Notes: generated from the sequence alone by a model not told the origin. 64,000 bases of DNA from Methylophaga sp. (GCA_002733715.2 NVWQ02000042.1:1-64000); one strand, 5' to 3'. Positions 52,328 to 60,057 are shown, numbered from the stretch's first letter. Numbers and translations are program-made.

Positions 52328-52413
52328 GCCGACGTGGTGAAATTGGTAGACACGCCATCTTGAGGGGGTGGTGGACATAGTCCGTGGCGGTTCGACTCCG
52401 CCCGTCGGCACCA
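52328..52413 (+). tRNA. tRNA-Leu, anticodon GAG
   Basis: An 86-nt class II tRNA. The acceptor GCCGACG pairs with CGTCGGC before A-CCA (encoded CCA at 52411-52413). The D arm has AATTGGTAGAC, the anticodon stem-loop CCATC-TTGAGGG-GGTGG places GAG at positions 34-36, a long variable arm (TGGACATAGTCCG) marks it as Leu-type, and the T arm is GCGGTTCGACTCCGC. It reads leucine CUC/CUU codons. Its 3' end is followed by an integrase remnant, so this gene was probably used as an integration site. Confidence 0.97.
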
Positions 52414-52499
52414 ACTTACACATAACTGTATGATAATTAAATAAATTATAATATAGAAAAGTATAAATAATCGCAGTGGACCACATATGGACCACAACA

Positions 52500-52841
52500 A
52501 TGAGATTATCGCAGTATTTATACCGCCGCCCAAGCGGTCATTATTATTTTAGAATACGCACACCTCAAGCTCTAAAATCAGAAGACACTGAATCAAGTAC
52601 TGGAATAAGTTTACAGAGCGTAATGGATGCCTATGCACAAGAGAAAATTCGAGCAGGTAATTGGACCAATAAGACCGAGAAAGAATATGCACAAATATAC
52701 GAGCTATTATTTCAAATCATAGGCAAAGAAATAAGCACCGACGAACTTAGCTATGATATTAGTCAAAAAGTAAAAACAACACTATTTGGAATAACGCTCA
52801 AGCATCATATTGCTATATTTAATAAAAAAATTGGATCATGA
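52500..52841 (+). pseudogene. Remnant of a phage-type integrase (DUF6538 N terminus)
   Basis: ATG 52500 begins RLSQYLYRRPSGHYYFRIRTPQAL, the DUF6538 opening of many tRNA-associated tyrosine recombinases. After only about 25 residues it jumps to a core-binding segment (SLQSVMDAYAQEKIRAGNW, TNKTEKEYAQIYELLFQIIG), so much of the N-terminal domain is deleted. The frame ends at 113 aa without any catalytic domain. It lies 86 bp after tRNA-Leu. The palindrome TGGACCACATATGGACCAC (52477-52495), just before the start, is a possible regulatory or recombination site. Not functional as a recombinase. Confidence 0.75.
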
Positions 52842-52934: not shown

Positions 52935-53099
52935 ATGAACAAAAAGTTAACACTATTTTTAACCAGTACATTTATTTTAGTGGATATCAAGGCGGGTTTG
53001 CGTAGCAATAGCGAGCTATTGGAAGTAAATTCAACGCAGAGAGCGGCTAAAATAGATGTGCTGGATGACCTGTGCTTATCCCGTTTTCAGGTTAGTTAA
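52935..53099 (+). other. Possible relic: signal-peptide start joined to a repeat
   Basis: The 250-bp gap between the integrase remnant and the next gene holds a 54-codon frame. Its first 16 residues (MNKKLTLFLTSTFILV) look like a signal peptide. From DIKAGLRSNSELL onward the DNA instead looks like a dispersed repeat with the palindrome at 53006-53021. I read it as the 5' end of a lost exported protein cut by a repeat. There is no clear ribosome site, and the frame overlaps the next gene's stop by 8 bp. Confidence 0.3.
53006..53021. repeat. 16-bp perfect palindrome in an intergenic repeat
   Basis: CAATAGC-GA-GCTATTG lies in a stretch (about 52982-53070) of the GCGTAGCAATAGC type that I know as scattered between genes in other gammaproteobacteria. 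Only one copy is seen here. Confidence 0.45.
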
Positions 53100-53865
53100 A
53101 TTGATAAGCTAAAGAAAAACCACTGCCAAGATCAGGCGCGTTATCACTGAGCCCTCGGATTAGATAACCTTGTATTTTCCAGTTCTGATCCAGCTTATAG
53201 CTAAGATAAGCTGAAAGTTGGCGAGTAGAAGGTCGAGTACTTGCTGTTGGTTCTTTGAGGTAGAGATTAATGCCTGTGCTTATTTTTGATGAAAATTTAT
53301 ACCCTAATCCAACTGAACCAAAGAAAACATCATCTAACTTTGTTGTGGAAGGTTGGCCATAAAATCTTCTACCCAAAGTTGCATAAGGTGTAAAATTCCC
53401 CATTAATTTGTATAAGCCTAAAGATAATGAATAATCATTTTTCCCTGTGCCAAGACTTTTGTCTTCATCGGCTGTTCCAAATTTGATCTTGCCATCTATG
53501 TTGAGTAATGTTTTTGATTTTGGCAGATAAAAAAGTCGGTAGCTACTTGAAAATACAATATCACCTAATCCATCATTAGTAGCTGTCCCAGTGGTAGTTG
53601 ATTGTGTTACCTGCCCAATATCACGAATAACATTTTGAGGCCCCTTTATTCTTAAATAGGGTACGGTTAGCTTTAGAGACCACTTATCTGTTTTGTATTT
53701 TAGTGATAGGGGTGTGTAATACACCTCTGTAGTATCGGAACTGCCATAATCGCCGGATGTAAATGTTGTGCCTGTAGATAGGGTGTATTTTCCTTTACTG
53801 CTATCAGCATAACTAGCTTGAGAAAATAAGAGCATCATAAGGATTGATAAAGATAATTTTTCCAA
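53092..53865 (-). CDS. Putative outer-membrane beta-barrel protein, 257 aa
   Basis: A signal peptide (EKLSLSILMMLLFSQASYA) is followed by amphipathic beta strands alternating with short turns (YTLSTGTTFTSGDYG, WSLKLTVPYLRIKG, YSLSLGLYKLMGNFTPYATL) and a final strand GFSLAYQFN. The chain ends Phe-Asn, so it lacks a strict terminal aromatic. It resembles the transporter/MetA-like barrels of about 250 residues. It lies 45 bp after the repeat protein on the same strand, as third gene of the DUF6502-DUF5666 operon, and may anchor or export that protein. Function unknown. Confidence 0.75.
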   Translation of the reverse strand: MEKLSLSILMMLLFSQASYADSSKGKYTLSTGTTFTSGDYGSSDTTEVYYTPLSLKYKTDKWSLKLTVPYLRIKGPQNVIRDIGQVTQSTTTGTATNDGLGDIVFSSSYRLFYLPKSKTLLNIDGKIKFGTADEDKSLGTGKNDYSLSLGLYKLMGNFTPYATLGRRFYGQPSTTKLDDVFFGSVGLGYKFSSKISTGINLYLKEPTASTRPSTRQLSAYLSYKLDQNWKIQGYLIRGLSDNAPDLGSGFSLAYQFN

Positions 53866-53909
53866 TTGGGTATACCTAAAATAACAGATTGGAACGTATA
53901 ATAACTTAA

Positions 53910-55583
53910 TTAATCATCATGTGCTTCATATTCAGGCACTTCAGGCGCTTCATATTCAGGCACTTCGGGCGCTTCATATTCAGGCACTTCAGGCGCTTCA
54001 TATTCAGGCACTTCAGGCGCTTCATATTCAGGCACTTCGGGCGCTTCATATTCAGGCACTTCAGGCGCTTCATATTCAGGCACTTCGGGCGCTTCATATT
54101 CAGGCACTTCAGGCGCTTCGTATTCTGGAGCCTCGGGCGACTCATATTCGGGTGCTTCTGGAGCCTCGTATTCAGGCACTTCTGGGGCTTCATATTCAGG
54201 TGTTTCAGGCGCTTCGTATTCTGGAGCCTCGGGCGACTCATATTCAGGTGTTTCCGGCGCTTCATACTCAGGAGCTTCGGGTGATTCATACTCAGGTGTT
54301 TCCGGAGATTCATACTCAGATGATTCATATCCATGATCTTTATATTCTTCACGCTCATCTTCTTTTTCTATTGACTCATGTTGTTCATCTTTGTCCTTAT
54401 CGTAAGTATCTTCATCTTCAGGTTCTTGTAGATCATGAATGTCATCATTATCAATAGTAGGCACATCTACCAACAGGTGATCTAGGATGATTACATTATT
54501 CTCACCAAGCTGCCCTGTTATGATTACTCTCTGATGTTCAGCTATTTTAGTGATGTCATTTTGTAATGAGCTTGGCACATCAATAGCTCTTCCTGAGATT
54601 TTAAAGCTATCAGTAGTTTTATTGATATAACCTTCAATACTTACTAAACCACCAACATTTGCTGTTAACTCATTTTCTTTAGCTAATGAAAGCGTATTAG
54701 GTGTTAATCCATCACCGTTGAGCACGCCAGTAGCTTGCACTTCCTGACCGAGGCTAGCGCCTTGCGGTGCAGCTGCATTGATTGTTAGTTCTTGAATCTT
54801 AAAATTAGTAGCAGAAATTTCTGAGATGGGACCTATAATGGATACTGTTGAAGTGGGCGAAATTTCATTAATTCGTGAGGCGATAATATTGCCTTGATGA
54901 TTGCGTAGTCCACTCACTTCAATATAGTCACCTATTTGGACTCCGCTATTGGCATTAATACGGTCTGAATTAGTAGGTAACTGTACTGATTGGCCAAGTA
55001 TTTCCATCTCATTATTTGCAATATCGATAGATGATACGGGACCGGTAACTGTATGTAGAATATGCATTTCTGTAGCTGTTACTTCATTGCCAGTACCGAA
55101 TACACTCACGGCAACAACTTGACCAATAGCAAATGAGTTGTCAGTTGTAACGAGTTGGTCATCACGATGTAGAGGCGTATCAGATGTGTAATGGATTTCT
55201 ATTCCATTAACGCAGATGCTACCAAACCCAGTGATTGTTCCGATAATAACACCCGCTTGTTGTATTGGAGAGCCAGTTCCACCAATGCCACTATTTTCTC
55301 TAGCTACGGCGCCTGTGCCTCCAATCCCTTTACCTATTTTTGCAATGGCACCAGTACCGCCGATGCTATTATCAAATAATAGAGGGGTTGTTGTTCTCTT
55401 ATGCTGACTTTTCGATGCGGGTTTCCCCGAACCACCAATTCCATTGTGACTTATATGGGCAATGGCACCTGTACCTCCGATACCACTTCCATTTGATATA
55501 TCGCAAATATCTGCGACTGCGCTATTAGTAAAAACAAGCCACAAGAAACTTAATATGATTTTAACTATGTGATGTCTAATCAT
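53910..55583 (-). CDS. Exported DUF5666-type repeat protein with acidic EYEAPEVP tail
   Basis: 557 aa from ATG 55583. After a signal peptide (about 1-24, LSFLWLVFTNSAVA) come five GIGG(T/S)G motifs spaced through residues 30-100 (DISNGSGIGGTGAIAHIS first). A series of small beta domains of the DUF5666 kind fills about 105-385 (IIGTITGFGSICVNGIEIHY, GPVSSIDIANNEMEILG, GPISEISATNFKIQ). An acidic stretch (DDIHDLQEPEDEDTYDKDKD) leads into about 18 tandem 8-residue repeats (EYEAPEVP) to the end. It overlaps the DUF6502 gene by 8 bp. It is probably periplasmic or on the surface, with the tail as a stiff, variable spacer. No enzymatic motif is seen. Confidence 0.75.
   Translation of the reverse strand: MIRHHIVKIILSFLWLVFTNSAVADICDISNGSGIGGTGAIAHISHNGIGGSGKPASKSQHKRTTTPLLFDNSIGGTGAIAKIGKGIGGTGAVARENSGIGGTGSPIQQAGVIIGTITGFGSICVNGIEIHYTSDTPLHRDDQLVTTDNSFAIGQVVAVSVFGTGNEVTATEMHILHTVTGPVSSIDIANNEMEILGQSVQLPTNSDRINANSGVQIGDYIEVSGLRNHQGNIIASRINEISPTSTVSIIGPISEISATNFKIQELTINAAAPQGASLGQEVQATGVLNGDGLTPNTLSLAKENELTANVGGLVSIEGYINKTTDSFKISGRAIDVPSSLQNDITKIAEHQRVIITGQLGENNVIILDHLLVDVPTIDNDDIHDLQEPEDEDTYDKDKDEQHESIEKEDEREEYKDHGYESSEYESPETPEYESPEAPEYEAPETPEYESPEAPEYEAPETPEYEAPEVPEYEAPEAPEYESPEAPEYEAPEVPEYEAPEVPEYEAPEVPEYEAPEVPEYEAPEVPEYEAPEVPEYEAPEVPEYEAPEVPEYEAHDD
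53934..54300. repeat. Coding minisatellite, 24-bp unit
   Basis: On the plus strand the unit GGCACTTC(A/G)GGCGCTTCATATTCA recurs every 24 bp. Eight almost identical copies run from 53934 to about 54125 and about eight to ten more diverged ones continue to about 54300. Copies differ mainly in an A/G third base. Because 24 is a multiple of 3, copy changes keep the frame. All frames stay open across it, which produces long false ORFs on both strands. Confidence 0.9.
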
Positions 55584-56445
55584 TTTTATTAGCCTCAGAG
55601 CTTTGTTCAGCTTCATTATAAAAATAGATCCCAAACCGCATTCGGGACGGAGCTTCATCTTCTGCCTTTTTACTGTTTACTTGCCGCTCAAGTTTGTCTA
55701 CCGCTTGAAGCTCAAGCGCATGTCGATTTATCTTTCTGAGCAAAGTCATACCACTTTTTTCGGCCATGGCTTGTAATTCATTAATTGAATGTTGGCTTAA
55801 TTGATCATAAAAAACAGCGCGATCGAGAAAGGGGGGCTGTTCTCCCAGCATATTATGGGCACCAGCAGCGATATGATCATGAATATTTTCACCAAAGAAC
55901 CATGCTTTTTCGTCGTAACCCTGTTCAGGTATAAAAGCACTAGCATTAAGGAAAATTCGATCTTGGTCATCAATAGAAACAATACCTAGACTTAGCCATT
56001 CATCAAGTACGGCTCTAGAACGAATATCTTTATTTACGGATATTACAAGTGCTTCAAATGATTGTTCACCACCTTGTTTTATTAATCGCGGAAGTGGCAA
56101 CGGCTTCTGGTTTTCATCAAGGAATTTATTGGAGCCAATCCATTTCGCCGCTAATTGTGCACCGAGTGATACGGACTCAGGGGCTTCATTATCAGATTCA
56201 CTATTTCGGAGCCTTTTAACATCTTTACGGTGAATGCCGGTTAGAAAGTTAATTCGACTGTCAGTTTGCTCTTTATTTTGAAGTTTAAAGTCATTTTCAG
56301 CTACTTCAACAAATATTTCTTTTAACAGATCAGCTAAAAATGGAAAAGTAATCCCACTTTTTAGCAAAAGTTTAATTAAAGGTCGCAACTGCCAACGCAG
56401 TGCTTTAACTAATGATTTTTGTGGTTTAGCTGATTCAATTGACAA
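55576..56445 (-). CDS. DUF6502-family protein
   Basis: 289-aa cytosolic protein. The N-terminal block SLVKALRWQLRPLIKLLLKSG, ITFPFLADLLKEIFVEVAE and the following TDSRINFLTGIHRKDVKRLR look like a winged-helix or HTH region followed by a linker and an alpha/beta domain (ALEVISV-like, SRAVLDEWLSLG). I place it in DUF6502 by this opening. DNA binding is an inference. The start is a TTG at 56445 without a clear ribosome site. It is the first gene of the operon and overlaps the DUF5666 gene by 8 bp, and it could regulate it. It is divergent from ccmA. Confidence 0.72.
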   Translation of the reverse strand: MSIESAKPQKSLVKALRWQLRPLIKLLLKSGITFPFLADLLKEIFVEVAENDFKLQNKEQTDSRINFLTGIHRKDVKRLRNSESDNEAPESVSLGAQLAAKWIGSNKFLDENQKPLPLPRLIKQGGEQSFEALVISVNKDIRSRAVLDEWLSLGIVSIDDQDRIFLNASAFIPEQGYDEKAWFFGENIHDHIAAGAHNMLGEQPPFLDRAVFYDQLSQHSINELQAMAEKSGMTLLRKINRHALELQAVDKLERQVNSKKAEDEAPSRMRFGIYFYNEAEQSSEANKND

Positions 56446-56567
56446 GATTACGGCCTATTTAGCAAAATGCGTGGTAAATTTTACCACATATGGGCGAGTT
56501 TAGTGTATATTTGACCACCTAGTATATAGATAACTATGCCATATATGTGCAGGAGACTCATCTTTCC

Positions 56568-57176
56568 ATGATACTTGAAGTGAAAAAATTGACTTGTTCT
56601 AGAGGTTATAGAGATTTGTTTAAGAACCTGAGTTTCGATTTGCAATCAGGTCAGCTTCTGCTTGTTGAAGGAGAAAATGGCAGTGGCAAGAGTACCTTGT
56701 TAAAAATATTGTCGGGACTTCGACAACCTGACAATGGAATAATGTATTGGAATGGTGATGAAATAGCATTTACATCGACAAATTATTCTAAACAAATTGT
56801 ATGGCTAAGTCATCGTAATGGCGTTAACGATTCATTAACGGCAAAAGAAAATATACAGGTCACAGCAAGTCTGAGTAAGTCGAATTTAACAGACATCAAT
56901 TCAATTTTGGAGCGTGTTGGGTTAAAGCCTTATGCAAATACATCTGTTAGGAGATTTTCGACTGGAATGAAAAGAAGATTGGCCTTGTCACGATTGCTGG
57001 TTAATAAAGCGAAGTTATGGATTTTAGATGAGCCGCAAAGTGCGCTGGATAAAGTGGGTATGGTATTGTTAGAAGAAATGATTGAGCAGCATGTGGCTAA
57101 TAATGGAATGGTGATTATGTCATCACACCATGATGTTCAAATTAAAAATGTAGCTATTAAAACATTAGCTCTATAG
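56568..57176 (+). CDS. ccmA: Heme exporter ATP-binding protein CcmA
   Basis: 202-aa ABC ATPase of the cytochrome c maturation system I. From ATG 56568 it begins ILEVKKLTCSRGYRDLFKNL, typical for CcmA. Walker A is EGENGSGKSTLLKILSGL, the signature RRFSTGMKRRLALSRLL (S-T-G-M rather than L-S-G-G, usual in CcmA) and Walker B LWILDEPQSALD. The gene itself is intact, but its partner ccmB is broken just after it and ccmC-ccmH are missing, so it may be a leftover copy. Confidence 0.88.
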   Translation: MILEVKKLTCSRGYRDLFKNLSFDLQSGQLLLVEGENGSGKSTLLKILSGLRQPDNGIMYWNGDEIAFTSTNYSKQIVWLSHRNGVNDSLTAKENIQVTASLSKSNLTDINSILERVGLKPYANTSVRRFSTGMKRRLALSRLLVNKAKLWILDEPQSALDKVGMVLLEEMIEQHVANNGMVIMSSHHDVQIKNVAIKTLAL

Positions 57177-57689: not shown

Positions 57690-57950
57690 CAAGTTGCACA
57701 GAGGGAAGGGTTCATAGTAATGTCATCTCGAGACTGTAGTGGAAGGGGGCTTGTGGCATTCTAAGATCTCTCCTAACGTCGATATGACAAATGTTTCAAT
57801 TTGTTTACACGGGCATAGTGAGGATGGCGGACTTTTTGTATAATCCTAGTTGTTTTGTGAATTTTGAATATAAACCTTTAAATGTATATTAAATAGTATA
57901 CAATAAACCTGAAATGTATATGTATTGTTATGCGTGTTTTGGGGTGGATT
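57690..57950. other. Gap without a gene, upstream of the HTH-Fic pair
   Basis: I see no coding frame or RNA here. The AT-rich 3' part (GTATATTAAATAGTATAC, 57883-57900, a partial dyad) could hold the promoter or operator of the downstream pair. The 5' part may be residue of the deleted ccm locus but shows no recognisable match. Confidence 0.4.
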
Positions 57951-58412
57951 ATGAGTATCAAAAAAATAGTACAAGCTCAATATCAATCTATTGTTGATCG
58001 GGCTGTAAATCAATCAGAAGACTGGGCTATTCCTCAGGAAGGGTGGATCCGAACGGTGCGAAAAGCATTAGGGATGTCAGGTTCTCAGCTTGCTAGACGT
58101 TTGGGGCGGACACGTGCGGCTGTATCTAATATGGAACGCGCAGAGTTATCTGGTAGTGTGAGTATAAAAAATATGCAACAGATGGCAAAGGCGATGAATT
58201 GCCGCTTTGTTTACGCCATTATTCCTGAGGTTTCTATTGAAAACCTTATACAGAATCGTGCAAAAGAAAAGGCTATAACTATTGTGGCTAAAGCCAATTC
58301 ACATATGGCACTTGAAGCTCAAGCATTGGATAAAGAGAGGATTGAATTTGAAGTCAATCGGATTAAGAATATCTTTATAAACGATCCCTCTACGGATTTA
58401 TGGAATGATTAA
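57951..58412 (+). CDS. Mobile mystery protein A, HTH antitoxin-like
   Basis: 153 aa from ATG 57951 (GGGGTGG just upstream). An in-frame ATG at 57930 is possible. The N-terminal part (IVQAQYQSIVDRAVNQSED, WAIPQEGWIRTVRKALGMSG) leads into an XRE-type helix-turn-helix (SQLARRLGRTRAAVSNMERAE) and an acidic helical tail. This is the TIGR02612 'mobile mystery protein A' pattern, always followed by protein B. It overlaps the Fic gene by 8 bp. It probably represses the pair's promoter and neutralises the Fic protein. Confidence 0.88.
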   Translation: MSIKKIVQAQYQSIVDRAVNQSEDWAIPQEGWIRTVRKALGMSGSQLARRLGRTRAAVSNMERAELSGSVSIKNMQQMAKAMNCRFVYAIIPEVSIENLIQNRAKEKAITIVAKANSHMALEAQALDKERIEFEVNRIKNIFINDPSTDLWND

Positions 58413-59001
58413 AAATATGGATTATCCAAAAGGGGCGACTCCGTTAGAAGCTGAAGAATTGGAAGGGCTGAAGTTTTCTCATATTACAACAAGAGGTGAA
58501 CTAGACCATTTAGAGCAAGCCAATATTTCAGCAGGGCTTATGTGGCTGAAACGACGGAAGGACAACAGCATTTTAAATGAACAGTTTATTCTAAAATTAC
58601 ATACCCAATTATTTGGCGATGTATGGCGTTGGGCCGGCAGTTTTCGACACACAGAGAAAAATATAGGTATTGATCCTGTGCAAATTAGTGTTCAGCTAAG
58701 AATGCTTTTAGATGATGTTCAATTCTGGCTTGATAATAAAACGTTCGATCCTATAGAAACAGCTGTTCGACTTCACCATCGGCTGGTTTATATTCACCTA
58801 TTTCCTAATGGGAATGGACGACATGCACGCATTATGGCTGATGCATTACTCGAAAAGGTATACGGCATAGCGCCCATTGACTGGCTTGCAGGATCGGATC
58901 TGCTGCAAGAAAGTGAGAGAAGGGATAACTATATTAGCGCACTGCAATTAGCTGATAGAGGTGATTATCAGGCTTTATTAGCTTTTGTTGGAAGAGGGTA
59001 A
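58405..59001 (+). CDS. Mobile mystery protein B, Fic-domain protein
   Basis: 198 aa (ATG 58405, or 58417 giving 194). The Fic core is H131-L-F-P-N-G-N-G-R139-H-A-R142, fully intact, with the flap region upstream (GDVWRWAGSFRHTEKNIGID). Fic proteins transfer AMP or other nucleotides to target proteins. Near the start, HITTRGELDHLEQANI is the place where an inhibitory helix lies in related proteins, but it does not match the (S/T)xxxE(G/N) motif exactly (TTRGEL). With protein A it forms a toxin-antitoxin-like module often found on integrons and mobile elements. Confidence 0.9.
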   Translation: MIKNMDYPKGATPLEAEELEGLKFSHITTRGELDHLEQANISAGLMWLKRRKDNSILNEQFILKLHTQLFGDVWRWAGSFRHTEKNIGIDPVQISVQLRMLLDDVQFWLDNKTFDPIETAVRLHHRLVYIHLFPNGNGRHARIMADALLEKVYGIAPIDWLAGSDLLQESERRDNYISALQLADRGDYQALLAFVGRG

Positions 59002-59349: not shown

Positions 59350-60057
59350 ATGAAATACGCTCTAATACTCTCATTTTTTCTTAATGTATCATTTTCTATC
59401 GCTGTATTTGCAGCAGATGAAATCAGTGACCAGCTTAAAGCTATGATTGTGCTTGCAGAGCTGGGTGATGCTGAAGCCCAATATGATTTAGCATTGGCTT
59501 ATGATTTTGCTGATGGTGCGCCTGAAGATCATATTGAGGCGGCTAAATGGTATCTCAAAGCTGCACAGCAAGGCCATATGGATGCACAATATAATTTGGC
59601 TGTTAGTTATGACGATGGTGAGGGTGTTGCCGAAGATGATGTTGCCGCCACAGTATGGTATCGCAAGGCTGCAGAGCAAGGTGATGCAAAAGCACAATAT
59701 AATTTAGCTCAAAGTTATGATAATGGTGAAGGTGTGGAAGTTGATCATGCAGAAGCGGTTGATTGGTATCGCAAGGCAGCTGCACAAGGGCATACATCTG
59801 CACAATATAATTTAGCCGTTAGCTATGATGAAGGTGAAGGTGTCAGACAAAATCATGAAGAAGCCGTGAAATGGTATGTCAAGGCCGCAAAGGCGGGGGA
59901 TCCTGAAGCGCAATATAATTTAGCCGTTAGCTATGAAATTGGCGAAGGTATTGAAAAAAATGAAGGCGAAGCTGTTAAATGGTATCGTCGGGCCGCGGCA
60001 CAAGGCGATGTTGATGCTGAAGCTCGAATAAAAGCCCTAGATAGTGCTAAGAAATAG
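59350..60057 (+). CDS. Exported Sel1-repeat (TPR-like) protein
   Basis: 235 aa. A signal peptide (KYALILSFFLNVSFSIAVFA) is followed by five Sel1-like repeats of 36 residues (AQYNLAVSYDDGEGVAED-x-AATVWYRKAAEQGD pattern) filling residues 30-228. Such solenoids bind proteins. Members act in signalling, envelope stress or secretion, and the role here is unknown. It is preceded by AAGGATCG before the ATG and lies alone between the antitoxin remnant and nuoA. The repeats are very alike (AQYNL recurs), which suggests recent duplication. Confidence 0.88.
   Translation: MKYALILSFFLNVSFSIAVFAADEISDQLKAMIVLAELGDAEAQYDLALAYDFADGAPEDHIEAAKWYLKAAQQGHMDAQYNLAVSYDDGEGVAEDDVAATVWYRKAAEQGDAKAQYNLAQSYDNGEGVEVDHAEAVDWYRKAAAQGHTSAQYNLAVSYDEGEGVRQNHEEAVKWYVKAAKAGDPEAQYNLAVSYEIGEGIEKNEGEAVKWYRRAAAQGDVDAEARIKALDSAKK

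Follow-up and report, generated by a model that had tools for sequence, protein, structure and literature searches.

A putatively self-regulated envelope operon of DUF6502, DUF5666 and beta-barrel genes beside tRNA-Leu in Methylophaga

What do three adjacent genes do, if the families they belong to carry no annotated role? The question is raised by a locus of Methylophaga sp. within the window, i.e. the 64,000 nucleotides that were analysed, where three minus-strand genes encode members, above the respective cut-offs, of the unannotated Pfam families PF20112, PF18914 and PF13557. A sequence-only reading had proposed that they form an operon with a common function, consisting of a possible regulator, an exported surface chain and a barrel, and located in a tRNA island. 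All three genes were found at the coordinates which that reading had given (Table 1). The overlaps, signal peptides and repeats it had listed were likewise recovered: the stop of the DUF6502 gene and the start of the DUF5666 gene overlap by 8 nt (ATGATTAG), the barrel gene follows after a gap of 44 nt, the second and third protein have signal peptides recognisable by eye, and both GIGGTG-type and octapeptide repeats are present. PADLOC found no match for any of the three proteins; therefore, a reading as a defence system was dropped.

Table 1. Features of the operon and of its surroundings in the window
Feature	Position	Strand	Basis or remark
tRNA-Leu(GAG)	52328..52413	+	Island insertion point; secG-tRNA-nuoA contiguous in 12/19 relatives
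Possible integrase remnant, N-terminal DUF6538-like piece	52476..52841	+	Weak PF20172 match below cut-off, E 6e-4; adjoins tRNA; tentative assignment
Outer-membrane beta-barrel, 257 aa, TTG start, signal peptide	53092..53865	-	PF13557
Probably exported DUF5666 protein, 557 aa: signal peptide, GIGGTG repeats, four modelled OB-type beta domains, acidic PEYEAPE tail	53910..55583	-	
16 tandem octapeptides PEYE[AS]PE[ATV], acidic tail	53913..54296	-	Sequence inspection
Five [GS]IGG[TS]G motifs, residues 34-104	55272..55484	-	Sequence inspection
DUF6502 protein, 289 aa; predicted HTH (residues 33-84) and winged-helix (86-173) regulator	55576..56445	-	PF20112
17-bp palindrome GTGGTAAAATTTACCAC, putative operator	56471..56487	.	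Upstream of DUF6502, 26 nt before its TTG start
Mobile mystery proteins A and B (XRE regulator, Fic protein)	57930-59001		Above NCBIfam cut-offs

In order to see whether the three families belong together, it is best to follow them through other genomes. Of 274 genomes sampled from the class, 76 contain DUF6502, 72 contain DUF5666 and 64 contain both (p 8e-41). The neighbourhoods of 77 loci from this sample and of 80 named loci were examined. In 112 of the 148 loci with enough sequence, a DUF5666 gene lies directly downstream of DUF6502, on the same strand. In 120 of 126 cases, the start of the downstream gene falls between -40 and +60 nt from the stop of DUF6502. The pair is conserved across classes and is also found on alphaproteobacterial plasmids, and the operon occurs in many bacteria of environmental origin; a barrel gene takes the third place in many loci, including those of Methylococcales, Nitrosomonas, Gallionellaceae and Pseudomonas. 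The families thus meet frequently outside the window, so that the proposal of a common function was not refuted; it is strongly supported by co-occurrence, constant order and translational coupling over a very wide phylogenetic range.

The insert comprises about 7.9 kb between tpiA-secG-tRNA-Leu and nuoA, and in 12 of 19 relatives the distance from the tRNA-Leu to nuoA is no more than about 0.7 kb, which bears out the island proposed earlier. No repeat of the 3' end of the tRNA-Leu was found in the window, nor did the GC content there clearly mark an island. Besides the operon and the mobile mystery proteins, the insert contains a lone gene for the heme-exporter ATPase CcmA (56547-57176), which is divergent from the operon and has no adjacent CcmB in the stretch read, and, on the nuoA side, a gene for an exported Sel1-repeat protein (59350-60057). 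In the same-genus genomes L232, L233, L235 and L237-L240, nuoA is not within 1.5 kb of the same tRNA-Leu either; the site may consequently be an integration hotspot. When 62 other genomes of the order were searched, a single one had a DUF6502 relative, with 30% identity; the protein of the window is much closer to one from Methylococcaceae, with 70% identity. This distribution fits a horizontal gain.

The DUF6502 protein matches PF20112 with 114.3 bits (cut-off 27) over model positions 3-266 of 268. Its AlphaFold2 model (pLDDT 86) consists of an HTH, a winged helix and long C-terminal helices; it resembles sigma region 4 and winged-helix proteins with Z-values of 5.5-7, that is, below the value of 8, where common arrangements also score. 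A Foldseek search with this model gave no significant match, and no regulator family was matched in a Pfam search of the protein. The pattern GTGGKAA-N3-TTMCCAC, with at most 2 mismatches, precedes 72 of 153 DUF6502 genes and is present in none of 765 control windows taken from the same loci. GTGGGAA and its complement are abundant in the upstream regions, and a related core (GGGAATA/TATTCCC) is found upstream in the lipoprotein branch of DUF6502 loci; a recognisable palindrome is absent from about half of all these regions. A T/A version is common to the window and its close relatives L144, L146 and L148, a G/C version occurs in others; thus, both arms of the palindrome changed together. The same four loci possess the HTH sequence NFLTGIHRKD, the others mostly LLTG[VI]HRKD, a distinction that may be due to shared descent. 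A scan for sigma-70 promoters gave matches below shuffled expectation. Because the palindrome is combined with an HTH/winged-helix model, DUF6502 is probably an autoregulator acting at its own promoter. This is our firmest inference on the operon, and the possible regulator of the sequence-only reading has become a well-supported one, given the conserved upstream palindrome and the DNA-binding type of the modelled fold.

The 274 genomes contain 13 exact palindrome sites, of which 7 precede DUF6502, and the genome of the window itself contains two. The second one (GTGGGAATTATTCCCAC; G000:C56:156550-156566, locus L342:1501-1517) lies ahead of an unrelated operon; it follows directly on a TTGACG/TATTAT-like promoter, with 138 bp between it and the genes for a P-loop protein and an ABC exporter. 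This site is a possible second target of DUF6502.

The second protein matches PF18914 in two stretches (56.3 bits, cut-off 27) and, according to its signal peptide, is likely exported. In the structural model (mad9491975008), the GIGGTG stretch is disordered (pLDDT about 40) and the four beta domains are confident. The second DUF5666 unit (residues 177-244) has a predicted OB fold with PriB and SSB matches at Z 8-9 and 1.8-2.0 Å, the best being PriB (Z 9.0, 1.8 Å over 63 residues). The remaining beta domains look similar in the model, and only residues 177-244 were compared structurally on their own; the DUF5666 domains model as OB folds.

As to the repeats in front of these domains, the exact GIGGTG coding sequence occurs only in this gene within the 2.8-Mb genome. 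There are 1 to 12 copies per protein, the last of which leads into the first DUF5666 unit, and in 148 loci the motif next to DUF6502 was never on the opposite strand. The exact coding pattern of GIGGTGI was found at 29 sites across the 274 genomes, and 24 of these are within 350 bp of DUF6502. Where the downstream gene lacks DUF5666, GIxGTG is present near the N terminus in 16 of 26 cases; among other genes it was seen in 6 of 923 (p 2e-23). The proteins concerned include FecR, CarboxypepD_reg/Calx-beta and tiny proteins of 93-119 residues; in L112 and L122, beside a barrel, the minimal proteins (93 and 119 aa) retain a signal peptide, GIxGTG and an ERPE-type tail and lack DUF5666. Because the motif is kept in these genes, the constant partner of DUF6502 is GIGGTG and not DUF5666, and the latter was rejected in this role.

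At the other end of the chain, 60 of the last 170 residues of the window protein are Glu. The barrel matches Phenol_MetA_deg (PF13557) with 36.7 bits (cut-off 22, E 6e-9); L155 and L316, among other close homologues, were not matched by PF13557 at E 0.01. This barrel family adjoins the DUF5666 gene in dozens of loci, and matches of a barrel profile lie mostly beside such genes. If a tail is defined by at least 45% charged residues or proline among the last 60, a tail is present in 45 of 47 main-branch loci with barrel and in 7 of 27 without (p 3e-10, for related loci and not tree-corrected). Tails lacking a detected barrel were seen in L126, L127, L212 and L218, and 32 loci of the lipoprotein branch contain no such barrel. 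The coupling between DUF5666 protein and barrel assumed by the sequence-only reading is thus real but optional, as a barrel of this kind is missing beside many DUF6502-DUF5666 pairs, above all in the lipoprotein branch. Among barrels away from DUF6502, 7 of 13 are preceded by an exported protein with an RPERPE/ERPE-type tail. A phylum-wide sample added more barrels preceded by ERPE-tailed proteins; more distant barrels in this sample often had no tailed neighbour (L348, L355, L357-L359), which weakened a universal tail-barrel rule. Since the presence of the tail tracks the barrel, docking of the tail into the barrel would be the simplest reason for the association.

Two further features of these proteins were observed. 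Small exported proteins preceding barrels in L310, L314, L316 and L318 share a [WF]G[IV]GYEYRxRHR-like motif ahead of RPERP tails. Nitrosomonas barrels (L155, L157, L173, L176 and others) have 400-470 residues, with a long Gly/Ser/Asp-rich insertion in one loop.

Our preferred reading, which we hold tentatively and at somewhat less than even confidence, is a self-regulated, horizontally mobile envelope operon whose barrel anchors or displays the tailed chain. Cytosolic DUF6502 would probably bind, as a dimer, to the palindrome that lies directly ahead of the DUF6502 gene, thereby setting operon expression; we infer both the DNA binding and this direction of regulation. The second gene, translationally coupled to DUF6502, would give an exported chain of three modules, namely a flexible N-terminal GIGGTG stretch, a string of OB-fold domains and an extended C-terminal charged/proline tail. 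The product of the third gene would most likely hold the chain via this tail, by docking or threading, so that the OB domains would be fixed at the outer membrane or displayed through it. Regulation by DUF6502 is the well-supported part of this scheme; docking and surface display are its putative parts. A more general version, possible but on balance doubtful, would treat GIxGTG as read by or co-selected with DUF6502, and the ERPE-type tail as a docking ticket for dedicated barrels, with exchangeable domains (OB, FecR or none) in between.

Several other explanations have to be weighed. In one of them, the barrel would simply conduct a substrate, as ordinary channels do, and the DUF5666 protein would work in the periplasm, where it binds or carries, for instance, a metal or a small molecule; the tail would then be a mere flexible spacer or a peptidoglycan tether, and DUF6502 would sense the substrate and control uptake. 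Phenol_MetA_deg is named for channels near aromatic degradation genes, the OB matches include the copper carrier CusF (2vb2, Z 7.9), methanotrophs and nitrifiers are among the hosts of the operon, and a DUF5666 gene of Acidithiobacillus appeared among iron-related hub genes (PMC10714799). However, CusF is tied with hundreds of other OB matches, the neighbourhoods examined show no conserved catabolic or transport genes beside the operon, and the OB domains are dispensable, as chains free of DUF5666 are still paired with a barrel (L112, L122, L166, L217). We consider the channel rather unlikely. A smaller chance is assigned to the idea that the chain is a free adhesin of surface or matrix and that the barrel only aids its crossing of the outer membrane, similar to two-partner export. 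The repeat-rich chain adjoining a barrel, the variable number of GIGGTG copies and the horizontal mobility would suit an adhesin, but the barrel has only about 250 residues and no POTRA or other two-partner secretion match, a Pfam search of the exported protein of the window gave no adhesin family, and half of the exported chains, mostly lipoproteins, have no barrel at all.

It is also conceivable, if quite improbable, that DUF6502 senses the state of export: the GIGGTG stretch of an unexported precursor would bind DUF6502 and alter its DNA binding, which would create a secretion feedback. The position of GIxGTG right behind the signal peptide and its persistence next to DUF6502 in otherwise unrelated exported proteins agree with such a feedback; this support is genomic linkage, and the motif could equally serve a processing step in the envelope. 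The least probable explanation, to which we give hardly any credence, is that unrelated genes hitch-hike in the tRNA island. The operon is indeed inside the insert at tRNA-Leu, but the same gene order is conserved at other locations in hundreds of genomes, which contradicts this explanation.

The envelope operon preferred here offers testable roles for three families of unknown function, which concern about a quarter of the sampled genomes of the class. It predicts a DNA site for a new family of regulators, whose target proteins are marked by a short peptide motif, and it hints at a rule by which tail and barrel might fix exported chains in the outer membrane. The operator, the link between GIGGTG and DUF6502 and the link between tail and barrel had all been missed by the sequence-only reading and are new with respect to it; they are likewise not part of the family definitions of PF20112, PF18914 and PF13557. 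In a literature search, with preprints and most subscription journals outside its scope, no paper was found which names DUF6502 or describes the operon; within the same scope, DUF5666 appeared only in passing mentions and GIGGTG only in one unrelated peptide review.

A comparison with known systems helps to place the components. The predicted fold of DUF6502 and the palindrome at its own promoter resemble autoregulators with an IclR-type winged helix or a sigma region 4-like HTH; in contrast to these, DUF6502 has long C-terminal helices and its structural scores are middling. The DUF5666 units match the folds of the OB-fold envelope proteins CusF, PilY2 and CcmE, but here several of them form a tandem array, with GIGGTG repeats in front of it and a charged tail behind. 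Unlike TpsB of two-partner secretion, the barrel of the window has neither a POTRA nor a TpsB match in Pfam. A precedent for a barrel holding an exported chain is given by lipoprotein-barrel complexes of the RcsF/OmpA type (PMC4942254, PMC7553776). As in these complexes, an extended segment of the exported chain would be held by an outer-membrane barrel, here deduced from the genetic association of tail and barrel; unlike there, one operon encodes the chain, the barrel and a regulator, and the likeness is one of idea, with no sequence relation claimed. The folds of the components are thus known, whereas the three-gene arrangement and its operator, motif and tail links appear to be new.
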